This document shows positions 25,052-49,977 of a DNA stretch of 56,707 nucleotides, piece after piece. The stretch lies in IMG/VR virus record IMGVR_UViG_3300041409_000548, positions 1 to 56,707 of that record. One strand, 5' to 3'. Source of the stretch: a virus. The notes below the pieces were generated by a model. It had not been told where the DNA came from and made no database searches. It saw nothing but the letters and a program-made list of their open reading frames with translations. Position 1 is the stretch's first letter, and each line of letters opens with the position of its first letter. A program made the position numbers and the translations under genes.

Positions 25052-25069
25052 CATGGGAGGTGATCGCCG

Positions 25070-25794: not shown

Positions 25795-25796
25795 TC

Positions 25797-26564: not shown

Positions 26565-26579
26565 GTCGGGGGGCGGGCG

Positions 26580-28796: not shown

Positions 28797-28798
28797 CC

Positions 28799-30126: not shown

Positions 30127-30138
30127 GGAGCGAGGGCA

Positions 30139-30360: not shown

Positions 30361-30363
30361 GCC

Positions 30364-31778: not shown

Positions 31779-31984
31779 CGCGTCTGCGGCAGACGTTGCA
31801 GGGCCACGAGGTCCGGGGGCCTCTGCCGCCGCTGCTCCGCACCTACCGCTGCGTCGCCGAGCTCGGGATGAGTCCGGCAGAGGTGGACGACACCCCGGCG
31901 TTGACGATCGACTGGCTGCTGGCGATCCACGACGTCCACGAGCGGGTCCGGGCGGAGGCGGAGGAGAAGGCGGCGAGGGCGTGA
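31739..31984 (+). CDS. Frameshift extension of the tail assembly chaperone (gpT-like part)
   Basis: This frame is joined to the upstream chaperone by the -1 slip, giving a fused product of about 215 residues. It has the expected content of the T part: 'FPYWALTRLRQTLQGHEV' at its start, then 'PLLRTYRCVAELGMSPAEVD' and 'TIDWLLAIHDVHERVRAEAE'. It has no good start of its own. The stop overlaps the next GTG. Confidence 0.82.
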   Translation, partial: GWCDGPGFPYWALTRLRQTLQGHEVRGPLPPLLRTYRCVAELGMSPAEVDDTPALTIDWLLAIHDVHERVRAEAEEKAARA

Positions 31985-32445
31985 GCGAGATCGTGTTCCT
32001 GGGCATCGAGGACGCCCGCCGGGAGTTGGCCGCCGCCGCGAAACGCGCCGACAAGGCCACCCTGGCGGCGCTGCGCGCCAACCAGAACCTGTTGAAGCGG
32101 GAGGTCCGGAAGGGTCTGCGCGGCGGGCCGCGGTGGGGGCACCGGGGGAAGTCGTCGCGGACCGGCGCCGCGGTGGACCTGGGGTTCGGTCACCACCCGC
32201 GGGGCGGCGGCCCGGGGAAGCTGACGGGGGCGCTGCTCGGCGGTGTGGGTTCGGTGCGCAGGCCGAAGCGGACCGCCGACCACGGCTACGTCGGTGGCGT
32301 CGGTGTCGGCGGCAACATCAACAACTTGAAGAAGGGCCCCCTCGAAGCCCGGTTCCCGTACTTCGAGCCCGCGTTCCGGCGGGCGTACCCGAAGTTCGCG
32401 CCGACGTGGGAGAAGGCGTGGGCCAAGGCGATCCACAAGAAGTAG
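31981..32445 (+). CDS. HK97 gp10-like tail completion protein
   Basis: The 154-residue basic protein resembles the HK97 gp10/minor tail completion type: 'EDARRELAAAAKRADKATLA', 'NLLKREVRKGLRGGPRWGHR', and a C-terminal 'YFEPAFRRAYPKFAPTWEKA'. These proteins usually lie between the connector and the tail tube genes; here the gene comes after the chaperone and before the tape measure, which is unusual. Confidence 0.7.
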   Translation: MSEIVFLGIEDARRELAAAAKRADKATLAALRANQNLLKREVRKGLRGGPRWGHRGKSSRTGAAVDLGFGHHPRGGGPGKLTGALLGGVGSVRRPKRTADHGYVGGVGVGGNINNLKKGPLEARFPYFEPAFRRAYPKFAPTWEKAWAKAIHKK

Positions 32446-32451
32446 CGGGGG

Positions 32452-35196
32452 GTGCTCGTGGCGATCCCCCCGGTGTGGGCCGAGTTGAAGGGCAAGTCGG
32501 GTCACTTCGACGCGATGATGGGCCGGTCCGGCGGGAAGCTGAGCCGGTTCTCGAAGGAAGGCTCGGGGCATTTCCGCGGCCTGTCGGGGGTGGCGAAGGG
32601 CGCGCTGCTGGGCGTCGGTGTCGCCGCTGTCGGCCTGGCCGGCGAGGCACTCGGCAGCGTGCGGACGTTCTTCTCCGAGTCGATCGCCGGGGCGCGCGAG
32701 TCGGCGAAGGTGGGCGCGCTGACGAACGCTGTCATCAAGTCGACCGGCGGCGCGGCGAAGCTGACCGCGGTGCAGGTCGGGGACCTGGCGACGGCGATCT
32801 CCAACAAGACCGGTGTCGACGACGAGGCCATCCAGTCCGGCGAAAACTTGTTGCTCACGTTCACGAACATCCACAACGCGGCCGGGAAGAACAACGACAT
32901 CTTCAACCAGGCCACGACGACCGCCGTGGACATGTCGGTCGCGCTGGGGCAGGACATGAAGTCGTCGAGCATCCAGCTCGGCAAGGCGCTGAACGATCCG
33001 ATCAAGGGCGTCACCGCGCTGCAGCGCGTCGGTGTGTCGTTCACGGCGTCGCAGAAGGACCAGATCAAGACGATGGTCAAGTCGGGGGACACCCTCGGCG
33101 CGCAAAAGTTGATCCTGGCGGAGCTCAGCAAGGAGTTCGGCGGCGCCGCAGCTGCCGCGTCGACCCCCGCCGAGAAGGCGCGCGTGGCGTGGGGCAACTT
33201 TCAGGAGATGCTCGGCGGGATGGTCCTGCCGGCCATCGACCGCCTCGCCACGTTCTTCACCACCACCCTGCTGCCGGGGGTGCAGTCGTTCATCACCGCT
33301 CTCCGCTCGGGTACCGCGTCCGGGGCCGGGTTCGCCGGGTTCATGTCGAACGCCGGGGTGAAGGCGCTGCAGTTCGGGCAGTTCTTCAAGGCCGACATCT
33401 TGCCGGCGTTGAAGGCGTTCGCGTCGTTCCTCACCGGCACCGTCGTCCCGGCCGTCGCCTCGTTCGGTGGCTGGCTGATGAAGTACCGCGGCTGGATCAT
33501 CCCCGTCGTCGCCGGTGTCACCGCGATGGTCGTCGCGTTCCGCATCTACACCACGATCCTGGCGCTGGTTCGTGCGGCGACGATCGCATGGATCGTGGTG
33601 CAGGCCATCTTGAACGTGGCCCTGACGGCGAACCCGATCGGGATCGTCATCATGGCGATCGTCGGCCTGGTGGCGATGTTCGTGGTGGCGTGGAAGCGGT
33701 CGGAGACGTTCCGGGCTGTGGTGACCGGGGCGTGGAACGGCATCAAGGCCGCGGCGATGGCGGTCGCGCGGTGGTTCATGGGGACCCTGCTGCCCGCGGT
33801 CTTGTCCGTCTGGAACGGCATCAAGACGGGGATCATGGCGGCGGTCCGGTTCATCATCGGCTACTACCGGATGCTCGGTCAGGGCGTCGTGATGGTCGTC
33901 GGGTTCTTCATCCGCATGTACACGGGTGTGCGGGCGAAGGTGGTCAGCATCATCCAGGCCGTCGCGGGGATGGCCGCGAAGGTCATCGGCTTCATCGTGA
34001 GCATCCCGGGCCGGATCTCGGGTGTCGGTGCGGCGCTCGTGCAGGGCCTCGCGAACGGTATCCGCGGCGCGGCGCATCGGGTCCTGGACGCGGTCCGGTC
34101 CCTGGTCGACAAGATCCCGCAGAAGATCCGGTCCATGTTGGGGATCTCGTCGCCGTCGCGGGTCACCGCCGTGCTCGGGCAGGCGATCGCGCACGGTCTC
34201 GCGCTCGGTATCCACACGTCCACGAAGACCGTGGTGAAGACGGCGCAGAAGCTGATCGACGGGGTCCGCGCCGCCATGTCGTCCGGGCTGCGGGGCGCCT
34301 CGTCGGGTCTGATGCGGGTCCTGACGCGTGAGGACTCGGCCCTGGAACGTCTCGCTCGCCGCCGCGACATCATCATCAAGCGGCTCGCCGACGCCGAGAA
34401 GGCGTACACGAAGGTCCTCAAGGCCCGCGCCGACTACGCGGCGAAGGTCGCCGACTCTGTTGCCGGGTTCGCCTCGATCACCGCCGCGACCGGTGAGGGG
34501 CCGCTGAATTCGGACATGCTGCTGGCGCAGATGCAGGCCCGGATCAGCCAGGTCGTCCAGTTCTCGGGTGTCATCGACCAGCTCCGCAAGGGCGGCCTGA
34601 ACTCGCGCGCGCTGGACGACATCATTCAGAAGGGCCCCGAGGAGGGGTACCGGTACGCGCTGGCGCTGGCGGGTGGTGGGAAGGACGCGATCGACCGCGC
34701 CAACGGGCTGCAGTCCCAGTTGGCCGGCGCGGCGAAGCGGCTCGGCGCGGTCGCGGGGAACGCCATGTACGCGGCCGGGGTGAGCACGGCGGCTGCGCTG
34801 GTGCGGGGCCTGCGGTCGCAGGAGAAGCACCTGGCGGCGGCGATGCTGCGCCTGGCGCGGCTGATGGCGTCGCAGATCCGTAAGGCGCTGCAGATCCGGT
34901 CCCCTTCGCGGGTGGGTCACGGGATCGGCGAGAACTTCGGCCTGTCGCTGGCCGGCGGGGTGCTGGCGGCGGCGTCGGCTGTGCAGTCTGCGGTCGCGGG
35001 GCTGGCCCCGTCGCCGCAGTTCGCGTTGGGCGGCGGGTACCGCGCGCCCGGCCGGGCGGCGGGCACGTCGTGGCCGGATCGGGACGACCGGCCGATCGTG
35101 GTGCAGCTGAACGTGGACGGGCACCGGCTGGTGGAGGCGCTGGTCCCGGCGGCGCAGCGCCGTAAGCAGCGCACCGGCACCTCCGGGTTGGCGTGA
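32452..35196 (+). CDS. Tape measure protein
   Basis: The 914-residue protein is the only very long helical protein in the tail region. It has 'SGHFRGLSGVAKGALLGVGV' near the start, several hydrophobic segments around 330-480, and two 'SPSRV' modules ('MLGISSPSRVTAVLGQAIAH' and 'IRSPSRVGHGIGENFG') typical of tape measures. Its length implies a tail of roughly 135 nm, using the usual 0.15 nm per residue. The start may be the second GTG (32458), better spaced from the GGGGGG ribosome-binding stretch. Confidence 0.92.
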   Translation: MLVAIPPVWAELKGKSGHFDAMMGRSGGKLSRFSKEGSGHFRGLSGVAKGALLGVGVAAVGLAGEALGSVRTFFSESIAGARESAKVGALTNAVIKSTGGAAKLTAVQVGDLATAISNKTGVDDEAIQSGENLLLTFTNIHNAAGKNNDIFNQATTTAVDMSVALGQDMKSSSIQLGKALNDPIKGVTALQRVGVSFTASQKDQIKTMVKSGDTLGAQKLILAELSKEFGGAAAAASTPAEKARVAWGNFQEMLGGMVLPAIDRLATFFTTTLLPGVQSFITALRSGTASGAGFAGFMSNAGVKALQFGQFFKADILPALKAFASFLTGTVVPAVASFGGWLMKYRGWIIPVVAGVTAMVVAFRIYTTILALVRAATIAWIVVQAILNVALTANPIGIVIMAIVGLVAMFVVAWKRSETFRAVVTGAWNGIKAAAMAVARWFMGTLLPAVLSVWNGIKTGIMAAVRFIIGYYRMLGQGVVMVVGFFIRMYTGVRAKVVSIIQAVAGMAAKVIGFIVSIPGRISGVGAALVQGLANGIRGAAHRVLDAVRSLVDKIPQKIRSMLGISSPSRVTAVLGQAIAHGLALGIHTSTKTVVKTAQKLIDGVRAAMSSGLRGASSGLMRVLTREDSALERLARRRDIIIKRLADAEKAYTKVLKARADYAAKVADSVAGFASITAATGEGPLNSDMLLAQMQARISQVVQFSGVIDQLRKGGLNSRALDDIIQKGPEEGYRYALALAGGGKDAIDRANGLQSQLAGAAKRLGAVAGNAMYAAGVSTAAALVRGLRSQEKHLAAAMLRLARLMASQIRKALQIRSPSRVGHGIGENFGLSLAGGVLAAASAVQSAVAGLAPSPQFALGGGYRAPGRAAGTSWPDRDDRPIVVQLNVDGHRLVEALVPAAQRRKQRTGTSGLA

Positions 35197-37709
35197 TGGC
35201 GCAGAACCCGAACCGGCCCGCGCTCGCCGCGCAGGTCGCGTTCAACGCCGACCCCAACGACCCCACCGCCACCGCACTGTGGAAGGAGGTGTCCCGCACC
35301 GGGAACCCGATGCTGGCGCTCGCCACGAAGCGGGGCCGCCAGTACGAGCTGGACCAGAACCAGACCGGCACCGCGACCGTGGTGTTCGACAACACGAACG
35401 AGAACCTGTCGCCCGCGAACACGGCCGGCGTGTACGCCCCGGATGTGCTGCCGATGCGGCAGTTCCGGGCCTACGCGGCGTGGCCCCTGACCGGGAACCT
35501 GCTGAACTCGGCCAACGGGCGCGAGCCGGGGTTCGTCGACGGGTACGACCCGCAGTTCACCGCCAACTCGTCCCTGTGGTTCGTCGGCGGCGCGACCTTG
35601 CCGACGTTCGTCCGCAACTCCACCCACGTCCGGTCCGCCGGGCAGGCGCTGGACGTGACGTGGCCCACCGCGTCGGCCGGTGTCCCGAAGGTGTATGTGC
35701 GGGTCCGGCGTCTCATCCCCGGCACCCGGTACACGTTCTCCCTGTACGTGTGGGTCACCGCGGGCACCCCCAACGTGACCTTGCTGGACACCGACGGCAC
35801 GTCCACCGTCGTCGCCGCGGGACAGACGTCCTCCTCCACCGGGACATACGTCCGCCTCACCTACGTCTTCGACGCGACCCTCGACACGCACCGTTTCGGT
35901 ATCACCCCCGCCACCGGCTCCACCGCCGGGCAGCACGTGTGGATCGACGACTACCAACTGGAATTCGGGTCGACCGCGGGCACGTTCACGTCGACCGGGC
36001 CCGTCCTGTACCCGCTGCACCAGGGCTACATCGAGCGGTGGCCCGCCCGGTGGGAGTCCGCCGGGTTCCGGTCCGTCACCGACACCACGTCCGTCGACGC
36101 GATGGCCGTCATGGAGAACCGGAGGCTTCGCGCCGAGCTCCTCACCGCTGTTCTCGACACCCACCCCGACTACTACTGGCCGCTGAACGAGCCGCAGGGG
36201 TCGACAACGTTCGCGGAAGCGTCCGGCAACAACGGGCCGCCGCTCACCGCCCGCATCTCGAAGTACGGCGGCGCCCTCCCGGAAGCCGGGTCCACGTCCA
36301 CCCTCGGCGGCGACCCCGAAGGCGTGGGGGTCCTGATCAACCCCACGGCCCCGTTCCCCGACTACTCCGGCGGCGGCCTGCAAGCCGGGCTGCCGGGCAC
36401 GTTCACCACCGGGGTCGACGTCGGCGCCGACACCGGGGCGTGGCAGATCACGATGGCGGCGTGGTTCAAAGCCGTCGACCCGCCCAACTCCCCCGGGCAG
36501 CGGATCTTCGCGTTCACCGGCCGCTCCCAGTACGGCTACGGGAAGACGACCCTCGGGATGTACCTGAGCAACACGCCCGGCGTGGGGGCGCAGTCGTTCG
36601 AGGTGAACGCCGAGACCGGGACGACTGCGTTCAACGTGAACACGTTCCTCACCGGCATCCCCATCTGGGACGGCAAGGACCACCTGCTCGTCGCGATCGT
36701 GGACGTGACCGCCCCCGGCGTGATGACCGTCACGTTCGGCATCGACGACGCGTACTTCCTCACCTCCGCGGCGATCGGCACCACCCCCAAGATGGCCGCG
36801 ACGTGGGTCGAGGTCGGCGTCCCCCTGGGGCAGCCCCTCACGACGGGGAACTCGCTGGTGCAGGCGCAGCTGTCGCACCTCGCGGTGTGGCGGCGGCAAC
36901 TGACGGGGACCGAGCGGACCGCCCTGTGGAACGGCGGCTCCGGCTACCCCGGTGAACTGTCCGGGACCCGCGTGGCCCGGTACGTGGCGCACGGCTACAC
37001 CGGCCCCACCGCGATCGACGCCGGCCTGTCGCCGATGGGCGTGTCGAACCTCACCGACGGCACCACCGTCCTGGAAGCCGTCCGGTCGGTGGCGGTCAGC
37101 GAGAACGGGAACCTGTTCGTCGACGGGTCCGGCACGGTGCGGTACGCCGACCGCGCCTCCCGGTACCTCAGCCTCACCTCGTCGTTCGTGTTCGGCGACG
37201 GCCCCGGCGAACTCCCGTACGAAGACGACATCGCGTTCGACTTCGACCCCGGGCAGGTGTTCAACGACATCGCCATCGACCGGCCCGGCGGGATCGCCGC
37301 CACCGTCGCCGACGACCCGTCGCAGCTCACCTACTTCCCCCGCTCCCTGCAACGCACCCACAACGTGGCGTCCGACCTCGAAGTCGCCGACGCGGCGAAC
37401 TGGTTCCTGCAAGCCCACAAGGACCCGCAGCTGCGGGTCCAGCAGATCCGGCTGATCCCGTCCGCGAACACCGCCCTGTGGCCGGCGGCGCTCGGGTGCG
37501 AGATCGGGACGCGGGTGACGGTGAACCGGCGCCCCAAGACCGGGGCGGCGATCTCGCTGGACTTCTTCGTCGAGTCGGTGGAACACGCGGTCGACCAGGA
37601 CTCGTGGGTGACGACGTTCCTCCTGTCACCGGCGATCGGCACGAGCGTGTGGATTCTCGAGGACGCCACCTACGGGCAGCTCGACGTGACCACGCAACTC
37701 GCGTACTGA
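35193..37709 (+). CDS. Distal minor tail protein with lectin-like insertions
   Basis: The 838-residue protein follows the tape measure, where the distal tail/baseplate protein is expected. The N-terminal 100 residues and C-terminal 250 residues resemble actinophage minor tail proteins ('GTATVVFDNTNENLSPAN', 'LSHLAVWRRQLTGTERTALW', 'RVTVNRRPKTGAAISLDFFV'). Between them are a carbohydrate-binding-like β domain (about 130-270) and a LamG-like domain (about 325-585, 'YYWPLNEPQGSTTFAEASGN'). It likely forms the tail tip and contributes to host binding. GTG 35193 and ATG 35196 are equivalent starts. Confidence 0.82.
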   Translation: MMAQNPNRPALAAQVAFNADPNDPTATALWKEVSRTGNPMLALATKRGRQYELDQNQTGTATVVFDNTNENLSPANTAGVYAPDVLPMRQFRAYAAWPLTGNLLNSANGREPGFVDGYDPQFTANSSLWFVGGATLPTFVRNSTHVRSAGQALDVTWPTASAGVPKVYVRVRRLIPGTRYTFSLYVWVTAGTPNVTLLDTDGTSTVVAAGQTSSSTGTYVRLTYVFDATLDTHRFGITPATGSTAGQHVWIDDYQLEFGSTAGTFTSTGPVLYPLHQGYIERWPARWESAGFRSVTDTTSVDAMAVMENRRLRAELLTAVLDTHPDYYWPLNEPQGSTTFAEASGNNGPPLTARISKYGGALPEAGSTSTLGGDPEGVGVLINPTAPFPDYSGGGLQAGLPGTFTTGVDVGADTGAWQITMAAWFKAVDPPNSPGQRIFAFTGRSQYGYGKTTLGMYLSNTPGVGAQSFEVNAETGTTAFNVNTFLTGIPIWDGKDHLLVAIVDVTAPGVMTVTFGIDDAYFLTSAAIGTTPKMAATWVEVGVPLGQPLTTGNSLVQAQLSHLAVWRRQLTGTERTALWNGGSGYPGELSGTRVARYVAHGYTGPTAIDAGLSPMGVSNLTDGTTVLEAVRSVAVSENGNLFVDGSGTVRYADRASRYLSLTSSFVFGDGPGELPYEDDIAFDFDPGQVFNDIAIDRPGGIAATVADDPSQLTYFPRSLQRTHNVASDLEVADAANWFLQAHKDPQLRVQQIRLIPSANTALWPAALGCEIGTRVTVNRRPKTGAAISLDFFVESVEHAVDQDSWVTTFLLSPAIGTSVWILEDATYGQLDVTTQLAY

Positions 37710-40455: not shown

Positions 40456-40677
40456 TTACCGGACGTCGAGGCCAGTCTTGTCGCGGATCGTCTCGTACGT
40501 CTTCGCGAGCCGGTTCGAACCGGGGTCGGATGCCACGATCGCGATGCCCCCGGGGCCGCTGATGCGCAGGTGCCCCTTGCCAGTCCGGTCTACCGTGCCG
40601 CCCGCCTTGGTGACGGCACGCTCGATGTCGCGGGCCTCCTTGGACCTGCCCCGGCCGGTGCCGCCGCGTGCGCTCAC
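40456..40677 (-). CDS. HicA-like small protein
   Basis: The 73-residue protein has the core of the HicA/dsRBD-like fold: 'IERAVTKAGGTVDRTGKGHL' followed by 'RISGPGGIAIVASD' and a helix 'SNRLAKTYETIRDKTG'. HicA toxins cut mRNA using a conserved His, and 'GKGHL' offers that residue. No HicB partner was found nearby; the upstream GntR-type repressor gene overlaps it by 4 bp, so the pair may form a small operon. Alternatively it is a harmless RNA-binding phage protein. Confidence 0.65.
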   Translation of the reverse strand: MSARGGTGRGRSKEARDIERAVTKAGGTVDRTGKGHLRISGPGGIAIVASDPGSNRLAKTYETIRDKTGLDVR

Positions 40678-41474
40678 GACCCGAGCTCCATCACGTACTG
40701 CAAATCCACCCTGTCCGACGGGATCACGATGTCGCACACCTCCACCACCCGACCCCCCGCCAACATCCGACGCCGCACACACAACACCGGCACACCCTCA
40801 TCGATGTCCAGCTCATCCACCTCATCCAACGCAGGCATCCGCGCCGACACCACCTCCTCCACCGCATCCACCACAACCCCCACCGAATCCAGCTGCGCCA
40901 TCGTCCCCCCCGGCCACGGCTCATTCGCCGGATCCACGATCGGTGTCCCCCCGACATCGCCCATCAGCAGGTAGCTGAACGACCGCCGGTGCGGCTCCAT
41001 CCCCCCGCCCTCATCGAAAAAGAACACGAACGTCCGCCGCAGCAGCGGCGTCAACGGCTCCACCCCGAACGCCCCCGCCAGGTCGTCGTCCGCCCCCACC
41101 ACCGTGGCATGAGCACCCAACTGCCAATCCCGGAACTCGTGCCCATGCGTGAACGGCGCGTCATCACGGGCATCCGCCGGCCGGGACAACTGCGCCCGCT
41201 CGTCTTCGTAGTGCGACGACGCCCGCCGCCGCACCACCCGGTGCGGGCGCACGAACCAGCCCCGGCCCTGCGCCGACGAGATCAGGCCCTCCGACTTGAG
41301 CAGCGTCAACCCCTGCCGCGCGGTCGTCGCCGACACCCCGAACTCCGCCGCCAACGTCTGCTGCGACGGCAGCAGGGCGCCGGGCGGGAACTCCCCGGCG
41401 GTGATGCGTTCGCGGAGCGCGTCGGCGAGTTGCTTGAACGGTGGCCGGTCAGACCTCGGGTTGATGCTCGTCAT
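40674..41474 (-). CDS. GntR-family (UTRA) transcriptional repressor, KorSA-like
   Basis: The 266-residue protein has a GntR winged helix at about 12-75 ('QLADALRERITAGEFPPGAL', 'AEFGVSATTARQGLTLLKSE', 'GRGWFV') and a UTRA-type ligand domain at about 95-260, ending in 'VLCVRRRMLAGGRVVEVCDI'. Repressors of this class (KorSA of pSAM2, KorA/TraR of other plasmids) keep transfer genes silent in actinomycete elements. It is transcribed away from the transfer cluster, with an operator-like palindrome between them, which fits self-regulation and repression of transfer. Confidence 0.88.
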   Translation of the reverse strand: MTSINPRSDRPPFKQLADALRERITAGEFPPGALLPSQQTLAAEFGVSATTARQGLTLLKSEGLISSAQGRGWFVRPHRVVRRRASSHYEDERAQLSRPADARDDAPFTHGHEFRDWQLGAHATVVGADDDLAGAFGVEPLTPLLRRTFVFFFDEGGGMEPHRRSFSYLLMGDVGGTPIVDPANEPWPGGTMAQLDSVGVVVDAVEEVVSARMPALDEVDELDIDEGVPVLCVRRRMLAGGRVVEVCDIVIPSDRVDLQYVMELGS

Positions 41475-41520
41475 CGGCGGGTCCTCTCTGGGCGCGCGTC
41501 AGTAGGTGACGGGAACTTGT

Positions 41521-41540
41521 GCGCCTATTGACATACGCGC
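41521..41540. promoter_or_regulatory. Candidate GntR operator over a -35 element
   Basis: GCGC-CTAT-TGAC-ATAC-GCGC is a near-perfect inverted repeat (outer GCGC and inner TAT/ATA match). It contains TTGACA at 41528-41533, a consensus -35 for rightward transcription. No ideal -10 is seen, the nearest being TCTCAT at 41554-41559, so the spacing is long. Binding here would block the transfer promoter and could control the repressor gene itself. Confidence 0.5.
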
Positions 41541-41597
41541 TTAAGTGGGTGAGTCTCATTGTGGCAGGTGGAGCCGTCGCCCGGAAGGGGCGAGTCG

Positions 41598-41795
41598 ATG
41601 ACCGCAACCGCAGTTCACATCCCGCAGCGCACGTCCGCCCCTTGGTCGGAGGCGTCGCAGCAGCTCGACCGGCTCGTCACGGATGCGTTCCGCCTGCACG
41701 ACGACCACGGGACCGGGACGTGTCCGGTCTGCCACACCAGATTCCCTTGCCCGGTGCTGGTTCGGGCTGACCTGAACCGTTCCCTCCTCACCTAG
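41598..41795 (+). CDS. Small zinc-knuckle protein, first gene of the transfer cluster
   Basis: The 65-residue protein starts at an ATG behind GAAGGGG. It has 'DHGTGTCPVCHTRFPCPV', a three-cysteine zinc-type motif, after a helix 'SEASQQLDRLVTDAFRLHDD'. Proteins like this often come first in actinomycete element operons. A GTG at 41559 in the same frame is a less likely start. Confidence 0.65.
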   Translation: MTATAVHIPQRTSAPWSEASQQLDRLVTDAFRLHDDHGTGTCPVCHTRFPCPVLVRADLNRSLLT

Positions 41796-41804
41796 GAGCC
41801 GACC

Positions 41805-42383
41805 GTGCGTCTGCCCGCGTTCCTCCGCAGGACCGACCCCGAATGGCCTACCGGCCGCGCAGCGCGTCGCGCCCGGCGCAGCTACTTCGCCCGCGAACGC
41901 TCATCCGGGTACGTCCTGGACCAGCTCCTCTCCGCGCTGCCCGACGAGCGGGACGACCTGTACCTCCTGCTCGCCAGCAACGAGCGGGAGTGCGCGGCGC
42001 TGCACGACACCGCGTTCGGCCCGGACGTCCTCACGGACGAGGACGTGGCCGCGGGTGAGTGCACGCTCCCGGCGATGCACGCCTACTCGGCGGCCCTGTT
42101 CTGGCTCCTGGCGGCTGTGGAGGTCCGGGTCGCGGCCGGGGACCGGGTCCCGCCGCCGCTGTCGTGGGCTGGGGTCACCGAGTTCCCCGAGGTGGAGCAG
42201 GCCGCGGCACCCGTGCTCGACCGCATGGTGGCGGCGCCCGAGCGGAGGCTCGACCTGCTGGTGGACCTGCGGCTCGCCGTGTGGGATGTGGTGCCCGGCC
42301 AGGGCGCCGAGGGTCTAGCCGCCGTGACCCCGCCGTGCACCCTGTGGGCGCGGGTTCGCCAGTCGATGACAGAGGCGGCTTGA
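41805..42383 (+). CDS. Hypothetical protein of the transfer cluster
   Basis: The 192-residue, acidic and helical protein starts at a GTG and has 'RAARRARRSYFARERSSGYV' near the N-terminus and 'AYSAALFWLLAAVEVRVAAG' in the middle. No family was recognised. It is spaced 9 bp from the upstream gene and 1 bp from the next, so it is probably co-transcribed. Confidence 0.65.
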   Translation: MRLPAFLRRTDPEWPTGRAARRARRSYFARERSSGYVLDQLLSALPDERDDLYLLLASNERECAALHDTAFGPDVLTDEDVAAGECTLPAMHAYSAALFWLLAAVEVRVAAGDRVPPPLSWAGVTEFPEVEQAAAPVLDRMVAAPERRLDLLVDLRLAVWDVVPGQGAEGLAAVTPPCTLWARVRQSMTEAA

Positions 42384-42384
42384 G

Positions 42385-42642
42385 ATGTCCGCGTTCCGTC
42401 GTCGTGTCGCCGCGCTCCGTCGCGTCGAGGCGCCTCGTCTCCCCGATGTCGCGCTGATCCTCGGCCTCGCGCTCTGCGGGAGCGCTGTGCTGTCGGGTGA
42501 GGATCCGCTGATGTGGGCGGGTGTCGTCCTCCTCGCCACGTTCGGGATCTTCACGCGCCTCTTCCAGTACGTGACCGACCGGGCCGTGACCGCGGAGGCC
42601 CGTGTCGCCGCCCGCGCCGGCCGCCCGTCCGCCGACCTCTAG
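42385..42642 (+). CDS. Small membrane protein of the transfer cluster
   Basis: The 85-residue protein has an Arg-rich N-terminus, two hydrophobic segments ('VALILGLALCGSAVLSG', 'MWAGVVLLATFGIFTRLF') and a helical tail. Small membrane proteins of this kind are common in Spd (spread) clusters of actinomycete plasmids. No closer match was recognised. Confidence 0.62.
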   Translation: MSAFRRRVAALRRVEAPRLPDVALILGLALCGSAVLSGEDPLMWAGVVLLATFGIFTRLFQYVTDRAVTAEARVAARAGRPSADL

Positions 42643-42708
42643 TCGTCCGGCCCCGGCGGTGTGTCCGCACCGGCGTCGGGGCTGGACGCCCAACCTGCAG
42701 GAGAAGAC

Positions 42709-43059
42709 GTGACCGACCTCGACGCGAAGATCCTCGGCCTCCTCATCGGGGGCCGCGACTACCTCGCCCGGCCCGACGTCGAACTGAACCAGGACGGCGG
42801 CTTCTTTGCCGACGACTCCACCAAATGCTGCGGGTTGGGCGCGGTCATGGCGGCTGCGGGATTCCGGCACGTCTGGTCCCTGTACGACGCGACAGGCGTG
42901 CCGTACCGCCTCATCCGCACCGCCCTCGACCGGGCGGTGCCCGAGTCCTCGCCTCACCGGGTGTTCCCCTACTTCAACGACCACATCGCGGAGTCGAAGG
43001 ACGACGTCCTCGCGGTGTTCGACCGGGCGATCGCAGACCTCCGCGCGGCCCAGCTGTGA
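42709..43059 (+). CDS. DUF6197-like protein (copy 1)
   Basis: The 116-residue protein shows the DUF6197 pattern: 'LLIGGRDYLARPDVELNQDG', a Cys pair in 'TKCCGLGAVMAAAG', and 'YFNDHIAESKDDVLAVFDRA' near the end. A paralogue at 52888-53262 shares the last segment almost exactly, also in DNA. The GTG at 42709 has CAGGAGAAG upstream; the in-frame GTG at 42661 is less well placed. The function is unknown. Confidence 0.75.
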   Translation: MTDLDAKILGLLIGGRDYLARPDVELNQDGGFFADDSTKCCGLGAVMAAAGFRHVWSLYDATGVPYRLIRTALDRAVPESSPHRVFPYFNDHIAESKDDVLAVFDRAIADLRAAQL

Positions 43060-43805
43060 CCGCCGGACGTGGCTGGGCGTACACCGGCGTCGCGCTCGGC
43101 GCCGTCACATCCGTCGCCGCGAACATCGCCCACTCCTACGTGCCACCGGCCGGATCGACCTCGGACTTCACCCCGCCCACCGGCTCGGTCATCAGCGCCG
43201 TGTTCTGGCCCGTCGCCCTCGTCGTCGGCATCGAAGTCCTCGCCCGCGCCGCGTGGCCAGCCGAAGCACGCTGGCTGTGGCTCCGCTACGGCGGCCTCGT
43301 CCCCGTGGCCACGGTGGCCGCCGTCGTGTCGTACCTCCACATGTCCGGCCTCCTGGCGTACTACGGCGAGTCGAAGGTGGCCGTCATCCTGGGGCCGCTC
43401 GCGGTCGACGGGCTGATGGTGATGGCCACCGGCGCGCTCATCGCCACCTCGCCGGCCCGGCACCGGACCGCGGTGGCCGGCGGCATGCCCGCACGGGGGG
43501 ACGTGGCCACACCGCCGCCCGTGGCGATCACGGTGCCGGGTCCCGGCACGCTACCTGTGGCCACCCCGGCGCCGGTAGTGGCCACGTCCGAGCCCTGGGT
43601 GGCCACGGAGCCTGAGCCGGTGGCCACGCCGCGGCCAGCCATCCCGGTCACCGACATGGAGAAGGCGGCCAGGGTGGCCGCCGCGAAGGCGAGTGGCCTG
43701 TCGCAGAAAGCCACGGCCGAAGAGACGGGGATCCCGCGGACCACGGTGCGCCGGTACTGGGACACGCCGCACCTGACCGCCGTCCCGAAGGAGGACGCCC
43801 GGTGA
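43056..43805 (+). CDS. DUF2637 / Spd-like membrane protein with C-terminal helix-turn-helix
   Basis: The 249-residue protein has four membrane segments in residues 1-130 ('YTGVALGAVTSVAANIAHSY', 'VISAVFWPVALVVGIEVLAR', 'GGLVPVATVAAVVSYLHMSG', 'LGPLAVDGLMVMATGALIAT'), the DUF2637 pattern of actinomycete elements. A Pro-rich linker with repeated 'VAT' units (150-195) follows, then a helix-turn-helix ('ASGLSQKATAEETGIPRTTV'). Spd-type proteins help transferred DNA spread across septa of mycelium. The DNA encoding the linker carries regularly spaced palindromes. Confidence 0.78.
   Translation: MTAGRGWAYTGVALGAVTSVAANIAHSYVPPAGSTSDFTPPTGSVISAVFWPVALVVGIEVLARAAWPAEARWLWLRYGGLVPVATVAAVVSYLHMSGLLAYYGESKVAVILGPLAVDGLMVMATGALIATSPARHRTAVAGGMPARGDVATPPPVAITVPGPGTLPVATPAPVVATSEPWVATEPEPVATPRPAIPVTDMEKAARVAAAKASGLSQKATAEETGIPRTTVRRYWDTPHLTAVPKEDAR
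43305..43627 (+). repeat. GTGGCCAC palindrome array
   Basis: The exact 8-bp palindrome GTGGCCAC occurs at 43305-43312, 43503-43510, 43557-43564, 43578-43585, 43599-43606 and 43620-43627. The last four start exactly 21 bp apart, two turns of the DNA helix, so they face the same side. In protein they encode 'VAT' units of a linker. Short repeats recognised by the FtsK-like TraB (TRS in clt) are the transfer sites of Streptomyces plasmids, so this is a candidate transfer or partition site. Confidence 0.55.
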
Positions 43806-44026
43806 GCCGCGTCATCACCGACGAGTTCGGCCGGCCCCTCAGCGGGCGCCACACGCTGGCCGAGGAAGCCGCGCTCCGCGCCGGCTTCGTGGAACGGATC
43901 CGGGCCCAGTACCCGGAGCGTTCGGACGACTGGGTGCGGACGTACGCCGAGTACGAACTCGCGATCGAACTGAACAAGCCACCGGCCGCGCCGCGGCAGC
44001 GGCGAGAGGGAGAAGACCTGACATGA
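43802..44026 (+). CDS. Small hypothetical protein of the transfer cluster
   Basis: The 74-residue, charged protein starts at a GTGA overlap. It has 'HTLAEEAALRAGFVERIRAQ' and 'DDWVRTYAEYELAIELNKPP'. It is predicted helical and was not assigned to a family. It overlaps both neighbours by 4 bp. Confidence 0.62.
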   Translation: MSRVITDEFGRPLSGRHTLAEEAALRAGFVERIRAQYPERSDDWVRTYAEYELAIELNKPPAAPRQRREGEDLT

Positions 44027-44208
44027 AGATCCGGCTCCGCAAGTCGATCCCCGTTCTCCCGTTCCTGCGGCTGAACCTGTCCAACTCCGGCATGTCGTGG
44101 ACGTTCCACGCCGGGCCGCTGTCGTACAACACGCGGCGTCGCCGCGGCCGGGCCGACCTGCCGGGCCCGTTCAGCGCGGAAACCGACCGCATCGGAGACG
44201 ACCGGTGA
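44023..44208 (+). CDS. DUF4236-like protein
   Basis: The 61-residue protein begins 'MKIRLRKSIPVLPFLRLNLS' followed by 'NSGMSWTFHAGPLSYNT', the pattern of the DUF4236 N-terminal domain ('RLNLSKSG'). The family is widespread and of unknown function. It overlaps both neighbours by 4 bp. Confidence 0.72.
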   Translation: MKIRLRKSIPVLPFLRLNLSNSGMSWTFHAGPLSYNTRRRRGRADLPGPFSAETDRIGDDR

Positions 44209-44495
44209 CCACCACCGACGCCAAGACCCTCGCCGAGCAGGTCAAGATCCTGCTCCGCAACAACGGCTACACCCTCACCGACAGGTTCCACGTCGACATG
44301 GGCGTCTTCGTCGAGGCCACCGGGATGCCCGGCTGCGCCAAGGTCACCCTCCCGTTCGGGGACGTCGGGTACCGCACGCAGATCAAGCGGGACCTGACCG
44401 CGCTGCTCCGCGGCACGGGCTACACCGTCGCCGCGGGCGGTTTCAGCCTCTCGACTTGCCTGTACGTCCGGGACGGCGCTGGCGGCGACCTGTGA
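44205..44495 (+). CDS. Hypothetical protein of the transfer cluster
   Basis: The 96-residue protein starts at a GTGA overlap. It contains two similar halves around 'LAEQVKILLRNNGYTLTDRF' and 'DLTALLRGTGYTVAAGGF', each a helix, 'GYT' and a strand, so it may be an internal duplication. No family was recognised. Confidence 0.6.
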   Translation: MTTTDAKTLAEQVKILLRNNGYTLTDRFHVDMGVFVEATGMPGCAKVTLPFGDVGYRTQIKRDLTALLRGTGYTVAAGGFSLSTCLYVRDGAGGDL

Positions 44496-44517
44496 ACACC
44501 GCCGCCCCCTTGCCGAA

Positions 44518-44634
44518 CGTCACCCACAGTGTCATCCTCGCGCGCCCGCGCGCGTACCCGTGCGCGTCTGGGCGTTGGACCCGGGCGCGGGTGCCACACC
44601 GGGTGTCACTGTCACTGCCACCGTCACCCACAGT
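44518..44634 (+). repeat. Gap with direct repeat CGTCACCCACAGT
   Basis: The 13-bp sequence occurs at 44518-44530 and 44622-44634, and a related GTCACTGTCAC lies just before the second copy. Between them is a stretch of alternating C and G (44539-44567). The 153-bp gap (44496-44648) divides the transfer cluster, so it may hold a promoter or a binding site for the genes from 44649, which include the translocase. Confidence 0.5.
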
Positions 44635-44648
44635 CACGGAGAACCGCC

Positions 44649-44912
44649 ATGGGCAAAGCTAAGGACTACCTCGTCCGGCTGTACCTCGACGGCTTCGAGC
44701 AGGTCGAGGAGGCGCACAGCCTCGACACCGGCAACGACAACGAGCTCGCCTCGACGCTCCGGCAGATGGTCCGCCGCGTCCGCAACGACAACCGGCTGTC
44801 CGACCGGGAGTACTCCCGGTACGTCATCCACGTGCACGAGGACAGGTCGGGCCGGTACCTGGCCGCGCGCTGCTGGGTGTCGTCGACCGGGGCCGTGCGG
44901 GTGAAGCGGTGA
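44649..44912 (+). CDS. Hypothetical protein of the transfer cluster
   Basis: The 87-residue protein starts at the ATG at 44649 behind CGGAGAA. It has 'MGKAKDYLVRLYLDGFEQVE', a basic helix 'TLRQMVRRVRNDNRLSDREY' and a β-rich end. A small mixed fold that could bind nucleic acid is plausible; no family was recognised. Confidence 0.62.
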   Translation: MGKAKDYLVRLYLDGFEQVEEAHSLDTGNDNELASTLRQMVRRVRNDNRLSDREYSRYVIHVHEDRSGRYLAARCWVSSTGAVRVKR

Positions 44913-45115
44913 CGTCGAACCGGCAGCGGGCCAAGGCCCAGCGCCGCGCCGAGTTCTGGGCGCAGAAGTTCACGCAGGTGCCCGACCCCAAGGGCCGGGC
45001 CGTCGTCGCGTTCGAGCGGCTCCGCGCCACCGTCCCGGCCCACGACCAGGCGTGGACCGAACTGGAGACCACGTTCACCCGGCTCGTCGAGCAGAGAGAG
45101 AGGGCCCGCGCATGA
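44909..45115 (+). CDS. Small basic helical protein
   Basis: The 68-residue protein is very basic at its start ('MTSNRQRAKAQRRAEFWAQK') and helical throughout. It starts at a GTGA overlap and ends in an ATGA overlap with the membrane protein gene. No family was recognised. Confidence 0.6.
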   Translation: MTSNRQRAKAQRRAEFWAQKFTQVPDPKGRAVVAFERLRATVPAHDQAWTELETTFTRLVEQRERARA

Positions 45116-45555
45116 GCGTCGGGCAGGGAATTTCCGCATCGGCGGGGCTGAGCGCCCTCGTCGTCGCCGGGATCATGTGGTTCATCGTCGGCCGGTGGCA
45201 GCCCCGGTACGTCGTCCTCCTCATCGTCGCCGGGATGGCCGGCCTCGCCGGGTCCGGGTTCGGCCAGGGGCTGCACCGCGGCGCGGGGTACGTCGACGGC
45301 AAGGTGTCCGTCGTCGTCGGGCAGTACACGGGCGCCACGATCGTCGGCCTCGTCGCGCTGATCACGCTCGCGGCGGTCACTGTCGGGGTGTTGAAGAACA
45401 AGGTGAGCGGGCGGACACTCGTCGCCGCCCTGGTCCTGCCCGCGGTCGTGACGATGATCCCGGGGGTGTTCGGTCAGGTGGCCACGGCCACCGTGAGCGC
45501 CCTGGCGTCCGGGGTGGGCATGGGCATCGGCGTCCTGTTCGGTGCGGGGGGCTGA
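45112..45555 (+). CDS. Multi-pass membrane protein, SpdB-like
   Basis: The 147-residue protein has four or five hydrophobic segments ('LSALVVAGIMWFIVG', 'YVVLLIVAGMAGLAGSGFG', 'GATIVGLVALITLAAVTVGV', 'LVAALVLPAVVTMIPGVFG'). A polytopic membrane protein one gene before the FtsK-type translocase is the usual place of SpdB in Streptomyces plasmids, where it helps the DNA cross mycelial septa. Similarity is by layout, not by a clear motif. Confidence 0.65.
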   Translation: MSVGQGISASAGLSALVVAGIMWFIVGRWQPRYVVLLIVAGMAGLAGSGFGQGLHRGAGYVDGKVSVVVGQYTGATIVGLVALITLAAVTVGVLKNKVSGRTLVAALVLPAVVTMIPGVFGQVATATVSALASGVGMGIGVLFGAGG

Positions 45556-45558
45556 CCG

Positions 45559-46407
45559 GTGGAACTTCTCATCTTGTTCATCGCCGCCGCGTACGGCCTG
45601 GGCCGCGGTGTGGAGGACGGTGTCGGTGAGGTCCGCGCGTTGTGGCGGGGCGCGCGGGACGCGCACGTGCAGCGCCGCGGCCACCGCCAGACACTCCGCG
45701 GGGGTGGCCGCGGAGGGGTGACCACCCCCGCGGGACCCGGTCGTGGCCACGGCACCGGCCGCAGGGTGGCCAAGGGCGCCGCGGCCACCCTGCACGGCAC
45801 GGCGGCCGCCGCCCGTGCGGCCAACTCGGTCCGCCGGGAGTTCACGGCCGGATGGCGTCGGGGGTGGCCGGAAGGCAAGGAACGCGGCGCCGCGTGGCTC
45901 GGCCGCCAGATGGCCACCCCCGACGTCGACCCCGCACCGGCCACGGACCCCAGCCTGCGCCCGGCCACCCTCGAACCGCGGCCACCCCAGCCACCCACCA
46001 ACCAGCCCACCACCGCACAGAGGAGCGCACCCATGACCACCACCCACACCGAGATCACCAGCATCCCCGCCTACATGCGGGAGTTGGAGGACGACATCAA
46101 GCGGTCCGCGTCGGAGATCGAAGACGCGCAGGCCGGCGCGCAGCGCGCCGCGCAGGACGTCGCGCACATCGACGCCGTGTCCGCGTCCCTCGCGGCCATG
46201 AAGCTCGACCCGGCGACCCTCGCGGAGACCGCCGCACGGCTGGAAACCAAGCTGGCCCGGCGGCAGGCACACCTGGCGCTGCTCGCGGCGGTCGAGGCCG
46301 AGGACGGCGCCAACCAGCAGGCGCTACAGGGCATCCAGGCCAGGCACGGCGCGATCCTCGAGCACGCCGACGTCGTCGCCGACCGCGCCGCCTACCAGGA
46401 CTCCTGA
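45559..46407 (+). CDS. Transfer-associated protein: membrane/basic part plus coiled coil
   Basis: The 282-residue frame has a short hydrophobic start ('MELLILFIAAAYGLGRG'), a basic Gly/Arg/Ala-rich region (40-130), a Pro/Thr-rich linker and a coiled coil (160-282). The coiled coil has its own start at 46033 with a strong ribosome-binding site. The basic part could bind DNA. Its DNA contains more GGCCAC half-palindromes and one full GTGGCCAC (45743-45750). Confidence 0.62.
   Translation: MELLILFIAAAYGLGRGVEDGVGEVRALWRGARDAHVQRRGHRQTLRGGGRGGVTTPAGPGRGHGTGRRVAKGAAATLHGTAAAARAANSVRREFTAGWRRGWPEGKERGAAWLGRQMATPDVDPAPATDPSLRPATLEPRPPQPPTNQPTTAQRSAPMTTTHTEITSIPAYMRELEDDIKRSASEIEDAQAGAQRAAQDVAHIDAVSASLAAMKLDPATLAETAARLETKLARRQAHLALLAAVEAEDGANQQALQGIQARHGAILEHADVVADRAAYQDS
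46033..46407 (+). CDS. Coiled-coil protein from internal start
   Basis: An ATG preceded by GAGGAG at a good distance opens a 124-residue product in the same frame as the longer gene. It contains 'EITSIPAYMRELEDDIKRSA', 'SEIEDAQAGAQRAAQDVAHI' and 'LAETAARLETKLARRQAHLA', a long coiled coil. Proteins of this shape and size stand alone before translocase genes in other actinomycete elements, so this may be the main product. Confidence 0.6.
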   Translation: MTTTHTEITSIPAYMRELEDDIKRSASEIEDAQAGAQRAAQDVAHIDAVSASLAAMKLDPATLAETAARLETKLARRQAHLALLAAVEAEDGANQQALQGIQARHGAILEHADVVADRAAYQDS

Positions 46408-46409
46408 CC

Positions 46410-48527
46410 GTGGGCCGCCGCACCGCGCCACCGACAGCGTGGCCCCCGAAACGGGGCCACCTGTCCCTCGTGCCGCCCATCCTCGCCGCGCCCCGCGACC
46501 GCCTCGAATGGAAGGCGTACCAGCGGGAGATGGCGGAGATGGCGCGGCAGGGCGCGGCGTGGCGGCGCACCTGGCGCGGCATCCGGCGGCTGTGCCGCTT
46601 CGGATGGGCACACCGCCGCGGCCTCGCCCCCCTGTACCTCGCCGTCGCCATGGAAATCAGCGGCGCCGTCCTGTCCACCGCCGAGAAGGGGTACGCCACC
46701 GTCCTCGCCATCTCCACCGTGCTGGCACCCGTCCTCGTCCGCCGCCTCCACCGCTGGCCGGCGCGGTTCCCGTGGGAACCCGCGTCGAAGACACCACGCA
46801 AGCCCGTGCCGCGGCGCCAAGCCGTGTGGGTGTGGACCCTGTTCGCCGCCGTCACCGCGTGGCTCACCGCCGCCGCGAACACCGGCGCAGGGCCGCCGAT
46901 GCCCGGGTTCCTGCTCATCGGCTTCATCGTGTGGAGCCTCGGATGGTGGAGCCACCACCGCATCCGCCCCCGCACCGCCGACGACCCCCGCGTGCAGCTG
47001 TGGGGCGACTACGTGGCCTGCACCGACGGGCCGCTACCGAAAGCCGTCCTCCACGACGTGCTCCCCATCACCGCCGCGCAGTACGCCGCCGGAGCCCAAG
47101 CCGTCGGCGTCACCACAGGCGGCGGCACCTCCGAGCCGATCGGCTGGACCGGCACCAGTTCCCTGCCACCCGGCAAGAACACCGCCACCCGGGCGATGGC
47201 GAAAGTCGAAGACGTGGCGTCCGCGTTCTCCCTCGACGCGCAGTCCGTCGTCCTCGAACCGGTCGACCCGCCGCGCGCCGACCGGGTCAAGGTGTCCGTG
47301 TACGAACACAACCCGCTGCGGAACGTGCTGCCGTGGCCGGGGCCGCACCTGTTCGACCCGGAGACGGGGATCGTGCCCGTCGCTCTGTACCAGGACGGGC
47401 AGCACGCCCTGTACCGGTACTACCGGCGCGGGTCCGGCCCCGTCCATGACCTCATCGCGGGCACAACCGACGCCGGCAAGTCGCGGCTCCTGGACATGTT
47501 CCTCGCGATCGAACGCCACAACTGGATGGTGTCGTTCGTCATCGACCCGCAGGAAGGCGCGTCCCTCCCGGTGTGGAAGGACCAGCCGGACGGGAGCCGC
47601 GCTGTCCACGGCTACGCCCGGAACGTCACCGAAGGCCTCTCGCTGCTGAAAGCCATCTACGCGGAGATGAAGGCCCGGAACCGGTTCATGGCGAACTACG
47701 AATGGACCGACGAGAAGGGCCGCACCCGCTACGGCCTCGACCACTTCGACCCGGCGTTCTGGGCGACGAGGGAAGATCCGGCGGACCGGCTCTGCCTGCT
47801 GTGCCTGACGATCGACGAGTCCCACGAACTCCTGAACGAGCCGTCCGGGCAGGGGAAGGGCCGCGCGGAAGACATCGGGAAGATGGCCCGCAAGTGCGGC
47901 ATCAAGCTTCGGCTTGTCACGCACGTTCCGACGCTGGACCAGCTCGGCGGGTCGGGCACCCTGCGGGACATGGTGAAGTCGCAGGTCGTGGTGCTCCGCA
48001 CGGGCACGCCCCTCGTGGGGCAGGTCGCTTTCTCGGGGCGCCTCCCGGTGGACCCGGTCAGTATCCCGATCGAGTTCCCCGACCGTTCGTCAACAGCCGG
48101 CATGGGCTACATCCTGGGCCCGGGGGCGCGGCCGGCGCCGGTGCGGACGTGGCTGGTGGAGGACGCGACGCATTGGGCGACGACGGGATCACTGACGCCG
48201 TTCACGCCGCTGTCGCCGGAGCTCGCCGCGTGGATGGGCGGGGCGCGGGGCGCCGGCCAGCGGGGGGCGCCTGTGGCGGTGTCGCAGCCGCCGGTGGGGG
48301 TTCCGGCGCCGCGGACGGCGAAGCAGCAGGTCGCGGAGTATCTGCGGCTTCGTGGCACGCAGGTGGGGCGGCAGGTGATCGTGAGGGAGTTGGGGATCGA
48401 GGCGACGCAGGTGTCTCGGGCGTTGCGGGAGCTGGGTGAGGAGGGGTTGGTGCATCAGCCTGATTGCCGGCCGGGTATGTGGGCGGCGGGTCCGGGTGTC
48501 GAATCCGCAACAGAGGTGCCGGTGTGA
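46410..48527 (+). CDS. FtsK/SpoIIIE-type DNA translocase (plasmid transfer protein)
   Basis: The 705-residue protein has hydrophobic segments within residues 70-180, then an FtsK-type motor with Walker A 'LIAGTTDAGKSRLL' (about 348-361) and Walker B 'CLTIDESHELL' (about 464-475), 'KMARKCGIKLRLVTHVP', and a C-terminal winged helix (about 639-695, 'QQVAEYLRLRGTQVGRQVIV', 'ATQVSRALRELGEEGLVHQP'). Proteins of this plan are the single transfer pump of actinomycete elements, moving double-stranded DNA between cells; the C-terminal domain recognises short repeats in clt. It is far larger than needed for virion packaging and has no standard role in a phage. Confidence 0.88.
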   Translation: MGRRTAPPTAWPPKRGHLSLVPPILAAPRDRLEWKAYQREMAEMARQGAAWRRTWRGIRRLCRFGWAHRRGLAPLYLAVAMEISGAVLSTAEKGYATVLAISTVLAPVLVRRLHRWPARFPWEPASKTPRKPVPRRQAVWVWTLFAAVTAWLTAAANTGAGPPMPGFLLIGFIVWSLGWWSHHRIRPRTADDPRVQLWGDYVACTDGPLPKAVLHDVLPITAAQYAAGAQAVGVTTGGGTSEPIGWTGTSSLPPGKNTATRAMAKVEDVASAFSLDAQSVVLEPVDPPRADRVKVSVYEHNPLRNVLPWPGPHLFDPETGIVPVALYQDGQHALYRYYRRGSGPVHDLIAGTTDAGKSRLLDMFLAIERHNWMVSFVIDPQEGASLPVWKDQPDGSRAVHGYARNVTEGLSLLKAIYAEMKARNRFMANYEWTDEKGRTRYGLDHFDPAFWATREDPADRLCLLCLTIDESHELLNEPSGQGKGRAEDIGKMARKCGIKLRLVTHVPTLDQLGGSGTLRDMVKSQVVVLRTGTPLVGQVAFSGRLPVDPVSIPIEFPDRSSTAGMGYILGPGARPAPVRTWLVEDATHWATTGSLTPFTPLSPELAAWMGGARGAGQRGAPVAVSQPPVGVPAPRTAKQQVAEYLRLRGTQVGRQVIVRELGIEATQVSRALRELGEEGLVHQPDCRPGMWAAGPGVESATEVPV

Positions 48528-48543
48528 GCCGTCGACCCGGTCG

Positions 48544-49977
48544 TCACGCCTTCCACGTGATGTCGACCGCCGCCGGATCGAAATAGGCGCCGCCCGGCAG
48601 GCGGCCCCGCCGCCCCGGCAGGATCGTCACCGTCACCAACGCATCCACCACCCCACGACGCCGATCCAAATCCAACCCCGCCCACACCGACCCCACATCA
48701 GGCACACCAGCCACCACCGACAGAGCCGAACGCTGCGACACCCGCGCGATCCGATCCTGCACCGCCTCCAACCGGGCATGCAGATCCCGCGACCCCGCCG
48801 CGAACTGCCTCGCATCGATCGCCGGGTTCTCACCCGCGAACAACCCCGCCAACTCGTCCAGCCGAGTCCGCAACACCTGAGCCTGCGTATGCAGAGCCGT
48901 CGTATCCGGCCGCTGATCCCCAGCCGCCAGCAGGCCCGCCGCGTCCGCCCGCCCCAGACGCGCCAACACGGCGCGCGTCACGAACCCGTCCACCGCCGCC
49001 GCATCCCGGTACACATGCCCACGAGTCGGCCGGCACCGGTACCCCGGCTTGTGAACCCCACTCCCCGTCGTCGTGGACGACACCAGCATCGGCGCCCCGC
49101 ACACCCCGCACACGTACAGCCCCGACCCCAGCCACCTACGCCCAGCCGGAGGCGACGTCCGCCGCGCCGGATCCCCCAACAGGGAACACAAAGCCCGCCA
49201 CGTGTCCTCCGTCAAAATCGCAGGCCACTTCGCCGCACCGATCACACTCTTCTGGTGCTGCCGCAAACCGGCGTTCCTCGGCCGCACCAGGACCCGCCCC
49301 ACCTCCCTCGGCGCCCACGCCCGTCCCGTCGACGTCGTCACCCCGCGGGCGTTCAGGTCCGCCGCGATCCGGCGCAGCGACCCGCCCGACAGGACGATGT
49401 CCGCCGCCGCGGCGATGACCGCCGCCTCCGACTCGACCACCGTGACACCGTCCGCCGCGTACCCGAACGGTCGCCGGCCGCCGCGCCACTCCCCGTCCGC
49501 CGCCAGTTCCAGGCTCTTGCGTTTGAGGCGTTCACGCTGGTGATCCACTTCGTACCTGGCGACCGCGCCGAGCAGGCGGGCTTGGAGCCATCCGGCGGGG
49601 GTGGTGTAGTCGATGAGCCCCGCTTTCACGGTCTGGGTGACGACACCGCGTTTCTCGCAGAGGGCCCCGTACTCTTCGGGTTCGACGATGGAGCGGTGCA
49701 GGCGGTCGGTGTGCCAGACGAGGACACCGCTGTAGCGGCCGGCGTCGATGTCGGCGAGGAGCCGCCGGTAGCCGGGGCGGGGTTTGCCGCTGTAGGCGGA
49801 CAGGTCGTTGTCGACGTAGACGTCGGTGACGTGCCAGCCGAGTTTGGCGGCGAGTTCGCGGCAGTCGGCTTCTTGGCGTTCGACGCCGAGGCCCGCACCT
49901 TCCCGGTCGCGGGAGATGCGGGCGTAGATCGCGGCGGGAATCGCGGGGATCGGTGTGCCCGGCGTCTGCTCGCTCAC
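48544..49977 (-). CDS. int: Serine integrase (large serine recombinase)
   Basis: The 477-residue enzyme has a resolvase N-terminal domain with the nucleophile Ser22 in 'IYARISRDREGAGLGVERQE', followed by 'DNDLSAYSGKPRPGYRRLLA' and 'VWHTDRLHRS'. A recombinase domain ('GGRRPFGYAADG', 'SGGSLRRIAADLNARGVTTS') and a zinc ribbon ('GLYVCGVCGAPM') follow, then a coiled coil. It would integrate the circular genome at attB and, with the excisionase-like protein, excise it. Its end lies 16 bp from the convergent translocase stop, so no attP fits downstream of it. Confidence 0.93.
   Translation of the reverse strand: MSEQTPGTPIPAIPAAIYARISRDREGAGLGVERQEADCRELAAKLGWHVTDVYVDNDLSAYSGKPRPGYRRLLADIDAGRYSGVLVWHTDRLHRSIVEPEEYGALCEKRGVVTQTVKAGLIDYTTPAGWLQARLLGAVARYEVDHQRERLKRKSLELAADGEWRGGRRPFGYAADGVTVVESEAAVIAAAADIVLSGGSLRRIAADLNARGVTTSTGRAWAPREVGRVLVRPRNAGLRQHQKSVIGAAKWPAILTEDTWRALCSLLGDPARRTSPPAGRRWLGSGLYVCGVCGAPMLVSSTTTGSGVHKPGYRCRPTRGHVYRDAAAVDGFVTRAVLARLGRADAAGLLAAGDQRPDTTALHTQAQVLRTRLDELAGLFAGENPAIDARQFAAGSRDLHARLEAVQDRIARVSQRSALSVVAGVPDVGSVWAGLDLDRRRGVVDALVTVTILPGRRGRLPGGAYFDPAAVDITWKA

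Follow-up and report, generated by a model that had tools for sequence, protein, structure and literature searches.

The sps sites of the SpdA2 system lie in or just upstream of spdA genes, or at the start codon, and affect plasmid stability (PMC4170104). The binding array of the lambda O protein, ori-lambda, sits within the O gene itself (PMC5043065). SpdB2 of pSVH1, which is an integral membrane protein, interacts with TraB and also binds DNA (described in PMC4170104), and among actinophages the RedRock parS, an 8-bp motif repeated eight times in direct orientation, serves as a centromere on an extrachromosomal prophage (PMC7157519). Here we describe an array of the palindrome GTGGCCAC that lies in the linker codons of a DUF2637-type membrane protein gene and that, judged from sequence, probably serves the element as a docking site for its DNA.

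The window, by which we mean the whole 56,707-base stretch of DNA analysed here, is a virus record with phage head and tail genes. Between 40.7 and 50 kb it contains a module composed of a GntR regulator, small genes, a DUF2637-type membrane protein, an FtsK-like translocase, and a serine recombinase; ParA/ParB were not seen in this module. Its relevant features are as follows.

40674..41474, minus strand: GntR/UTRA regulator, part of the DUF2637 module
43056..43805, plus strand: DUF2637-type membrane protein gene, 249 aa (PF10935/HTH_23 family matches, AlphaFold2)
43305..43312, no strand assigned: sixth GTGGCCAC, in membrane-domain coding DNA
43503..43627, no strand assigned: main array of five GTGGCCAC (43503, 43557, 43578, 43599, 43620) in linker-coding DNA (synonymous shuffles)
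43633..43637, plus strand: half site GGCCA (within CGGCCA), 11 bp past the last full site
43653..43760, plus strand: C-terminal HTH codons, candidate array reader (weak Pfam HTH_23/HTH_3, AlphaFold2)
45470..46000, no strand assigned: second cluster, 17 GGCCA/TGGCC half sites and GTGGCCAC at 45478 and 45743
46410..48527, plus strand: FtsK/SpoIIIE-like translocase with a C-terminal winged helix (PF01580)
48544..49977, minus strand: serine recombinase, integrase type

This plasmid/AICE-like module (40674-49977) adjoins the phage head/tail genes (20187-37709) within one virus record, and the record is a possible phage-conjugative hybrid. The translocase gene is found 2.6 kb downstream of the array gene in the window and also adjoins the array gene in many relatives.

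Across the whole window, GTGGCCAC occurs 10 times (2.9 +/- 1.6 expected; a count of 10 was reached in 0 of 100 shuffles). The copies outside the module, at 28110 and 28146, are inside a phage structural gene, and six copies fall in the 750-bp gene 43056-43805 (Poisson P ~4e-12 at the window rate, a value that takes no account of the motif having been chosen by eye). A recount confirmed the initial annotation in its five copies within 125 bp, four of them exactly 21 bp apart, and its sixth copy at 43305. The half sites that it had noticed in the gene preceding the translocase are also there: the second cluster lies mostly within gene 45559-46407, upstream of the translocase, and this gene has 17 GGCCA/TGGCC half sites where codon shuffling gives 7.2. 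The translocase gene itself (46410-48527) has no TGGCCA and is depleted in GGCCA/TGGCC half sites (7 vs 15 by codon shuffle). The tail gene 35193-37709 is likewise poor in them (9 vs 17.6 by codon shuffle), the opposite of the array gene. Within the main array, the four phased 21-bp units are identical at 8/8 positions of the motif and at only 2-7/13 elsewhere, and Tandem Repeats Finder reported no tandem repeat there.

AlphaFold2 places helices at residues 2-27, 42-64, 71-79/81-102, 107-131, and 200-235 of the window protein, a layout of four predicted TM helices (2-131), a disordered linker (~132-198), and a three-helix HTH (200-235), with pLDDT values of 93-96 in the HTH and ~50 in the linker. 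The main array coincides with the codons of the disordered linker. Using Foldseek, ~34 HTH residues align to DeoR and LuxR-type HTHs with an rmsd of ~1.1 Å and an E-value that is not significant, and a fold search with the whole window model gave no significant match. The DUF2637 label given at the outset stands for the family, of which 15 of the 16 aligned members match PF10935, and does not stand for the window protein by itself, which alone is below the threshold; over the alignment it is 43-52% identical to the aligned PF10935 members. A multi-helix membrane domain followed by a linker and a C-terminal HTH is the architecture of most members identified here, and the window protein has the same. 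The DUF2637 protein gave no match in the phage and plasmid collections.

In all, 1,464 genomes or records were searched, yielding 35 close homologues and then more; Streptomyces-type DUF2637 seeds were left out because the longest-frame choice gave wrong frames. DUF2637 proteins abound on the chromosomes and elements of actinobacteria, being present in 113 of the 296 genomes of the sampled class. The GTGGCCAC array is absent from nearly all homologues; we, therefore, rejected GTGGCCAC as a conserved site. Val-Ala-Thr repeats are not kept in the homologues either; the pattern that had been named as evidence for a protein-level repeat, in which such repeats persist while their codons vary freely, is thus absent. 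Many homologues have an array of another short motif in the same linker-coding stretch, and about three-quarters have no clear array. The linker arrays, by motif and locus, are as follows.

GGCCA: the window, L004, L314
CGGACA: L005, L020, L036, L240-242
GCGACA: L243
GGAACG: L169-171
GGGACG: L244, L350
GCGTAC/TACGCA: L293, L272, L358
GCGGCA: L245, L246
CGCGTC: L017, L018, L022
TCGACA: L013, L016
CGGGCC: L009

TGGCCA/GGCCA fills the linker of L004 (46% identical) in several frames, where it encodes VAT, VAI, VAM, VAK, DGH, and RPS; codon shuffling of the L004 tail gives 17.4 half sites, and the tail itself has 36. Arrays in several frames and/or on both strands are found in L004, L036, L169-171, L244, L293, L241, and L008. 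Spacings are ~10-12 or 21 bp, the 11-bp steps of L004 not being codon multiples, which suggests helical phasing with the sites on one helix face. The array gene of L008 (5236-6140) has a reversed order, in which an N-terminal region and the linker precede the membrane domain. Its linker contains ~28 CGGAGG sites on both strands and in five frame/strand classes (25 vs 7.9 by codon shuffle), no HTH was recognised in the gene, and the L008 translocase is the only one found to be related to that of the window. L008 lends support to an array housed in the linker but is a warning with regard to its reader, which may not be the HTH in every case.

The surroundings of the DUF2637 genes contain other features. 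At L244:4425-6771, the DUF2637 gene with its GGGACG array has a RepSA replicase and a C-5 cytosine methylase in its vicinity. In many Micromonosporaceae elements, clusters of CTAGCA/CGCTAG (5-8 per 240 bp) are found downstream of the DUF2637 gene, ~2.9-4.7 kb after its start (L011, L013, L014, L016, L019, L021, and L030); these clusters are possibly an origin or a clt site.

For the family as a whole we analysed 118 tails of DUF2637-family genes, a set that is diluted because some frames are probably wrong (e.g. L351 and the second L314 frame). Clustered 6-mers (score >=5) were found in 27 of the 118 tails, whereas of 521 control genes from these loci 15 had one (odds ratio 10, P 1e-11). Ranked against equal-length windows of the locus to which each belongs, 16 tails are in the top 1% (1.2 expected), and a synonymous test on the maximum over 6-mers is passed at the 0.01 level by 15 of them (1.2 expected). 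Several array loci are close relatives, and the counts, therefore, overstate independence. In the synonymous-shuffle maximum test, 12.7% of tails reach P<0.01 compared with 2.3% of 697 control segments (Fisher P 4e-6). Recurrence upstream of the gene provides a check that is independent of motif choice. Across the 26 array loci, the motifs chosen from the linkers occur 79 times in the 300 bp before the gene where 13.3 are expected (6-fold), compared with 11 vs 13.3 (0.8-fold) at -600 to -300 and 15 vs 13.2 (1.1-fold) just downstream, and control genes have no upstream excess (1 vs 2.6 expected). Inside the gene, the array motif is 3.3-fold enriched in membrane-domain codons and 15.9-fold in the linker, the linker figure reflecting the choice of the motifs from the linkers. 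At least three upstream copies are present in about seven separate lineages and none in several loci, the window included; in L171 these copies are intergenic, and in L240-242 they belong to another small frame. Because the arrays in the strong cases beat codon shuffles and cross several frames and often both strands, and because the arrays change motif and recur upstream, a DNA-level site rather than a protein repeat is supported at the family level. The original idea of a DNA site hidden in linker-coding sequence is thus supported by relatives that keep arrays and swap the motif.

If the array is a DNA site, both the HTH of its own protein and the neighbouring translocase are candidate readers. 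HTH similarity tracks motif identity, with a permutation P of 1e-4 for all pairs and 0.012 for pairs with dissimilar linkers. Genome G371 has four elements. CGGACA is found upstream and in the linker in the three whose HTH reads SKRTVRRYL, and GCGACA in both places in the fourth, whose HTH reads HHSTVARIV. Shared ancestry accounts for part of this link, and HTH similarity between the window and L004 is low (0.12) despite their common GGCCA. The translocases of these two loci are unrelated (similarity 0.01-0.04), and L005 and L036, both with CGGACA, have a translocase similarity of 0.06. The translocase C-terminus of L036 is similar to those of L022, L017, and L018 (0.59-0.61), whereas the motifs differ (CGGACA vs CGCGTC). 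To some extent, then, the motif appears to go with the protein's own HTH rather than with the FtsK-like translocase next to it, and since it does so, the TraB-type reader put forward in the initial annotation is not supported.

In our judgement the chances are about even that GTGGCCAC forms an element-specific array for DNA binding in DUF2637-type linker codons that is read by the HTH and serves in membrane tethering. Computation across the family shows the linker arrays, selection on the DNA itself, the change of motif between elements, and the recurrence upstream; the HTH as reader is an inference, and tethering at the membrane, with its purpose, is a conjecture. In this mechanism, the C-terminal HTH of the array protein would read the array, the four-helix domain would hold the HTH at the membrane, and many copies of the protein would grip their own gene in cis. 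The element DNA might in this way be tethered at the membrane or septum beside the FtsK-like pump, where the tether might aid spreading, partition, or transfer and might also autoregulate the gene, and the disordered linker could absorb the coding cost of the array. A generalization that we find possible but rather doubtful is that DUF2637 proteins are membrane anchors, each binding an array within its own gene, and that array and HTH change together between elements, so that every element would have an address tag, housed in disordered-linker codons, for tethering, spreading, or exclusion.

Judged alone, the window makes a moderate case for a DNA-level site, weaker than that at the family level. 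All six Val-Ala-Thr triplets of the gene are coded GTG GCC ACN, with GTG and GCC each used about half the time. Synonymous shuffles of the whole gene reach six sites at P 0.0005-0.001, motif-specific shuffles of the linker alone give P ~0.01-0.015, and the maximum test confined to the linker does not reach significance (P 0.20). The array is almost wholly in one reading frame, and the 300 bp upstream of the gene contain no motif (1.3 expected). The phage gene 26580-28796, which encodes a 738-aa protein with Ala/Val/Thr-rich repeats, is also enriched in GGCCA (35 vs 18.9 by codon shuffle), so that duplication or codon-pair bias can mimic the array signal; this gene serves as a cautionary control for uniform codons in repeats. 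Searching viral contigs for three successive GTGGCCA returned at least 119 stretches, a pattern common in high-GC DNA and hence uninformative. Given the single frame, the linker P values, and the phage gene, our argument rests on the relatives. A reading of the window repeats as nothing but Val-Ala-Thr units repeated in the protein, or duplicated, and uniform in their codons would fit main copies that share one frame, a 21-bp period equal to seven codons, and the similar excess in the repeat-rich phage gene. We consider this very improbable, however, because the 21-bp units have little in common outside the motif, the triplet coding is uniform in six of six cases, homologues swap residues yet keep arrays in several frames and upstream, and L004 and L314 come near to having GGCCA arrays in linkers free of Val-Ala-Thr.

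The remaining explanations accept a DNA site and differ in its reader or purpose. FtsK recognition sites are directional and not palindromic, and the palindromic GTGGCCAC therefore fits poorly with a clt-type loading site read by the C-terminal winged helix of the FtsK-like translocase, as in Streptomyces TraB; together with the translocase comparisons above (window/L004, L036/L022/L017/L018, and L005/L036), this makes such a site unlikely, even though the translocase gene is near the array gene in the window and many relatives, the L008 array gene leaves the translocase as a candidate reader, and known clt sites are short direct repeats, one overlapping a tra gene (PMC3583192). Repeats phased at ~21 bp or 11-12 bp also resemble iterons, some array genes adjoin replication genes (L244 beside RepSA), and ori-lambda provides a precedent for an origin inside a gene (PMC5043065). 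Replication iterons read by the HTH or another initiator are nevertheless quite unlikely given that the array protein, with its membrane domain, lacks an initiator domain and that AICE replicases are separate genes. Just as improbable, in our view, is a set of operators through which the HTH controls its own gene as repressor or activator, with the linker copies as extra operators: the concentration of the motif in the 300 bp upstream (79 vs 13.3), including short intergenic DNA, is what such control would produce, but the copies can number 20 or more, most of them 400-700 bp into the gene, which exceeds what an operator requires, and several loci, the window among them, have no upstream copies.

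In the literature searched, which included few subscription papers, DUF2637 is mentioned in one paper, on an unrelated subject, and we found no report of DUF2637 arrays of this kind. Binding arrays carried by the gene of their own reader are already known as such; here the motif changes from element to element and lies in genes for DUF2637 membrane proteins. If many DUF2637 proteins do carry a docking site in cis, a family without known function becomes testable, each gene predicting its own motif. On the same condition, DNA transfer and spreading of the Streptomyces type, which are poorly understood, would gain a tether to the membrane that is sequence-specific, and the arrays would offer a clear example of a fast-changing DNA site housed in the codons of a disordered linker.

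Compared with TraB and clt, the loci described here have in common plasmid-specific short repeats near an FtsK-like pump (PMC4170104, PMC3583192); unlike in that system, the motif does not follow the translocase, co-variation with the translocase winged helix was not found, and the sites are in another gene. The likeness to SpdB2 is that of an element-encoded integral membrane protein, with DNA binding known for SpdB2 and predicted here, although that of SpdB2 is reported as non-specific; SpdB of pIJ101, the only SpdB tested, matched neither the DUF2637-family model nor Pfam. RedRock parS is likewise an array of a short motif but is read by the ParB of a ParABS system. Phased repeats, as in iterons, are present with 21-bp and 11-12-bp spacings, and the layout of an array within the gene of its proposed reader is analogous to that of lambda O; O, however, is a soluble initiator, whereas the protein here is a membrane protein without an initiator domain. 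The SpdA2/sps system offers an analogy in its element-encoded DNA-binding protein and its short palindromes in or near that protein's own gene, which is the candidate layout here at the family level. The sps palindrome CGTCACGTGACG, which we located in the pIJ101 control at 8140 and 8173, is not the window motif (GTGGCCAC/GGCCA). It is conserved across plasmids in 1-3 copies, whereas the motif described here varies by element and is present in many copies, and the window protein is a DUF2637 membrane protein.
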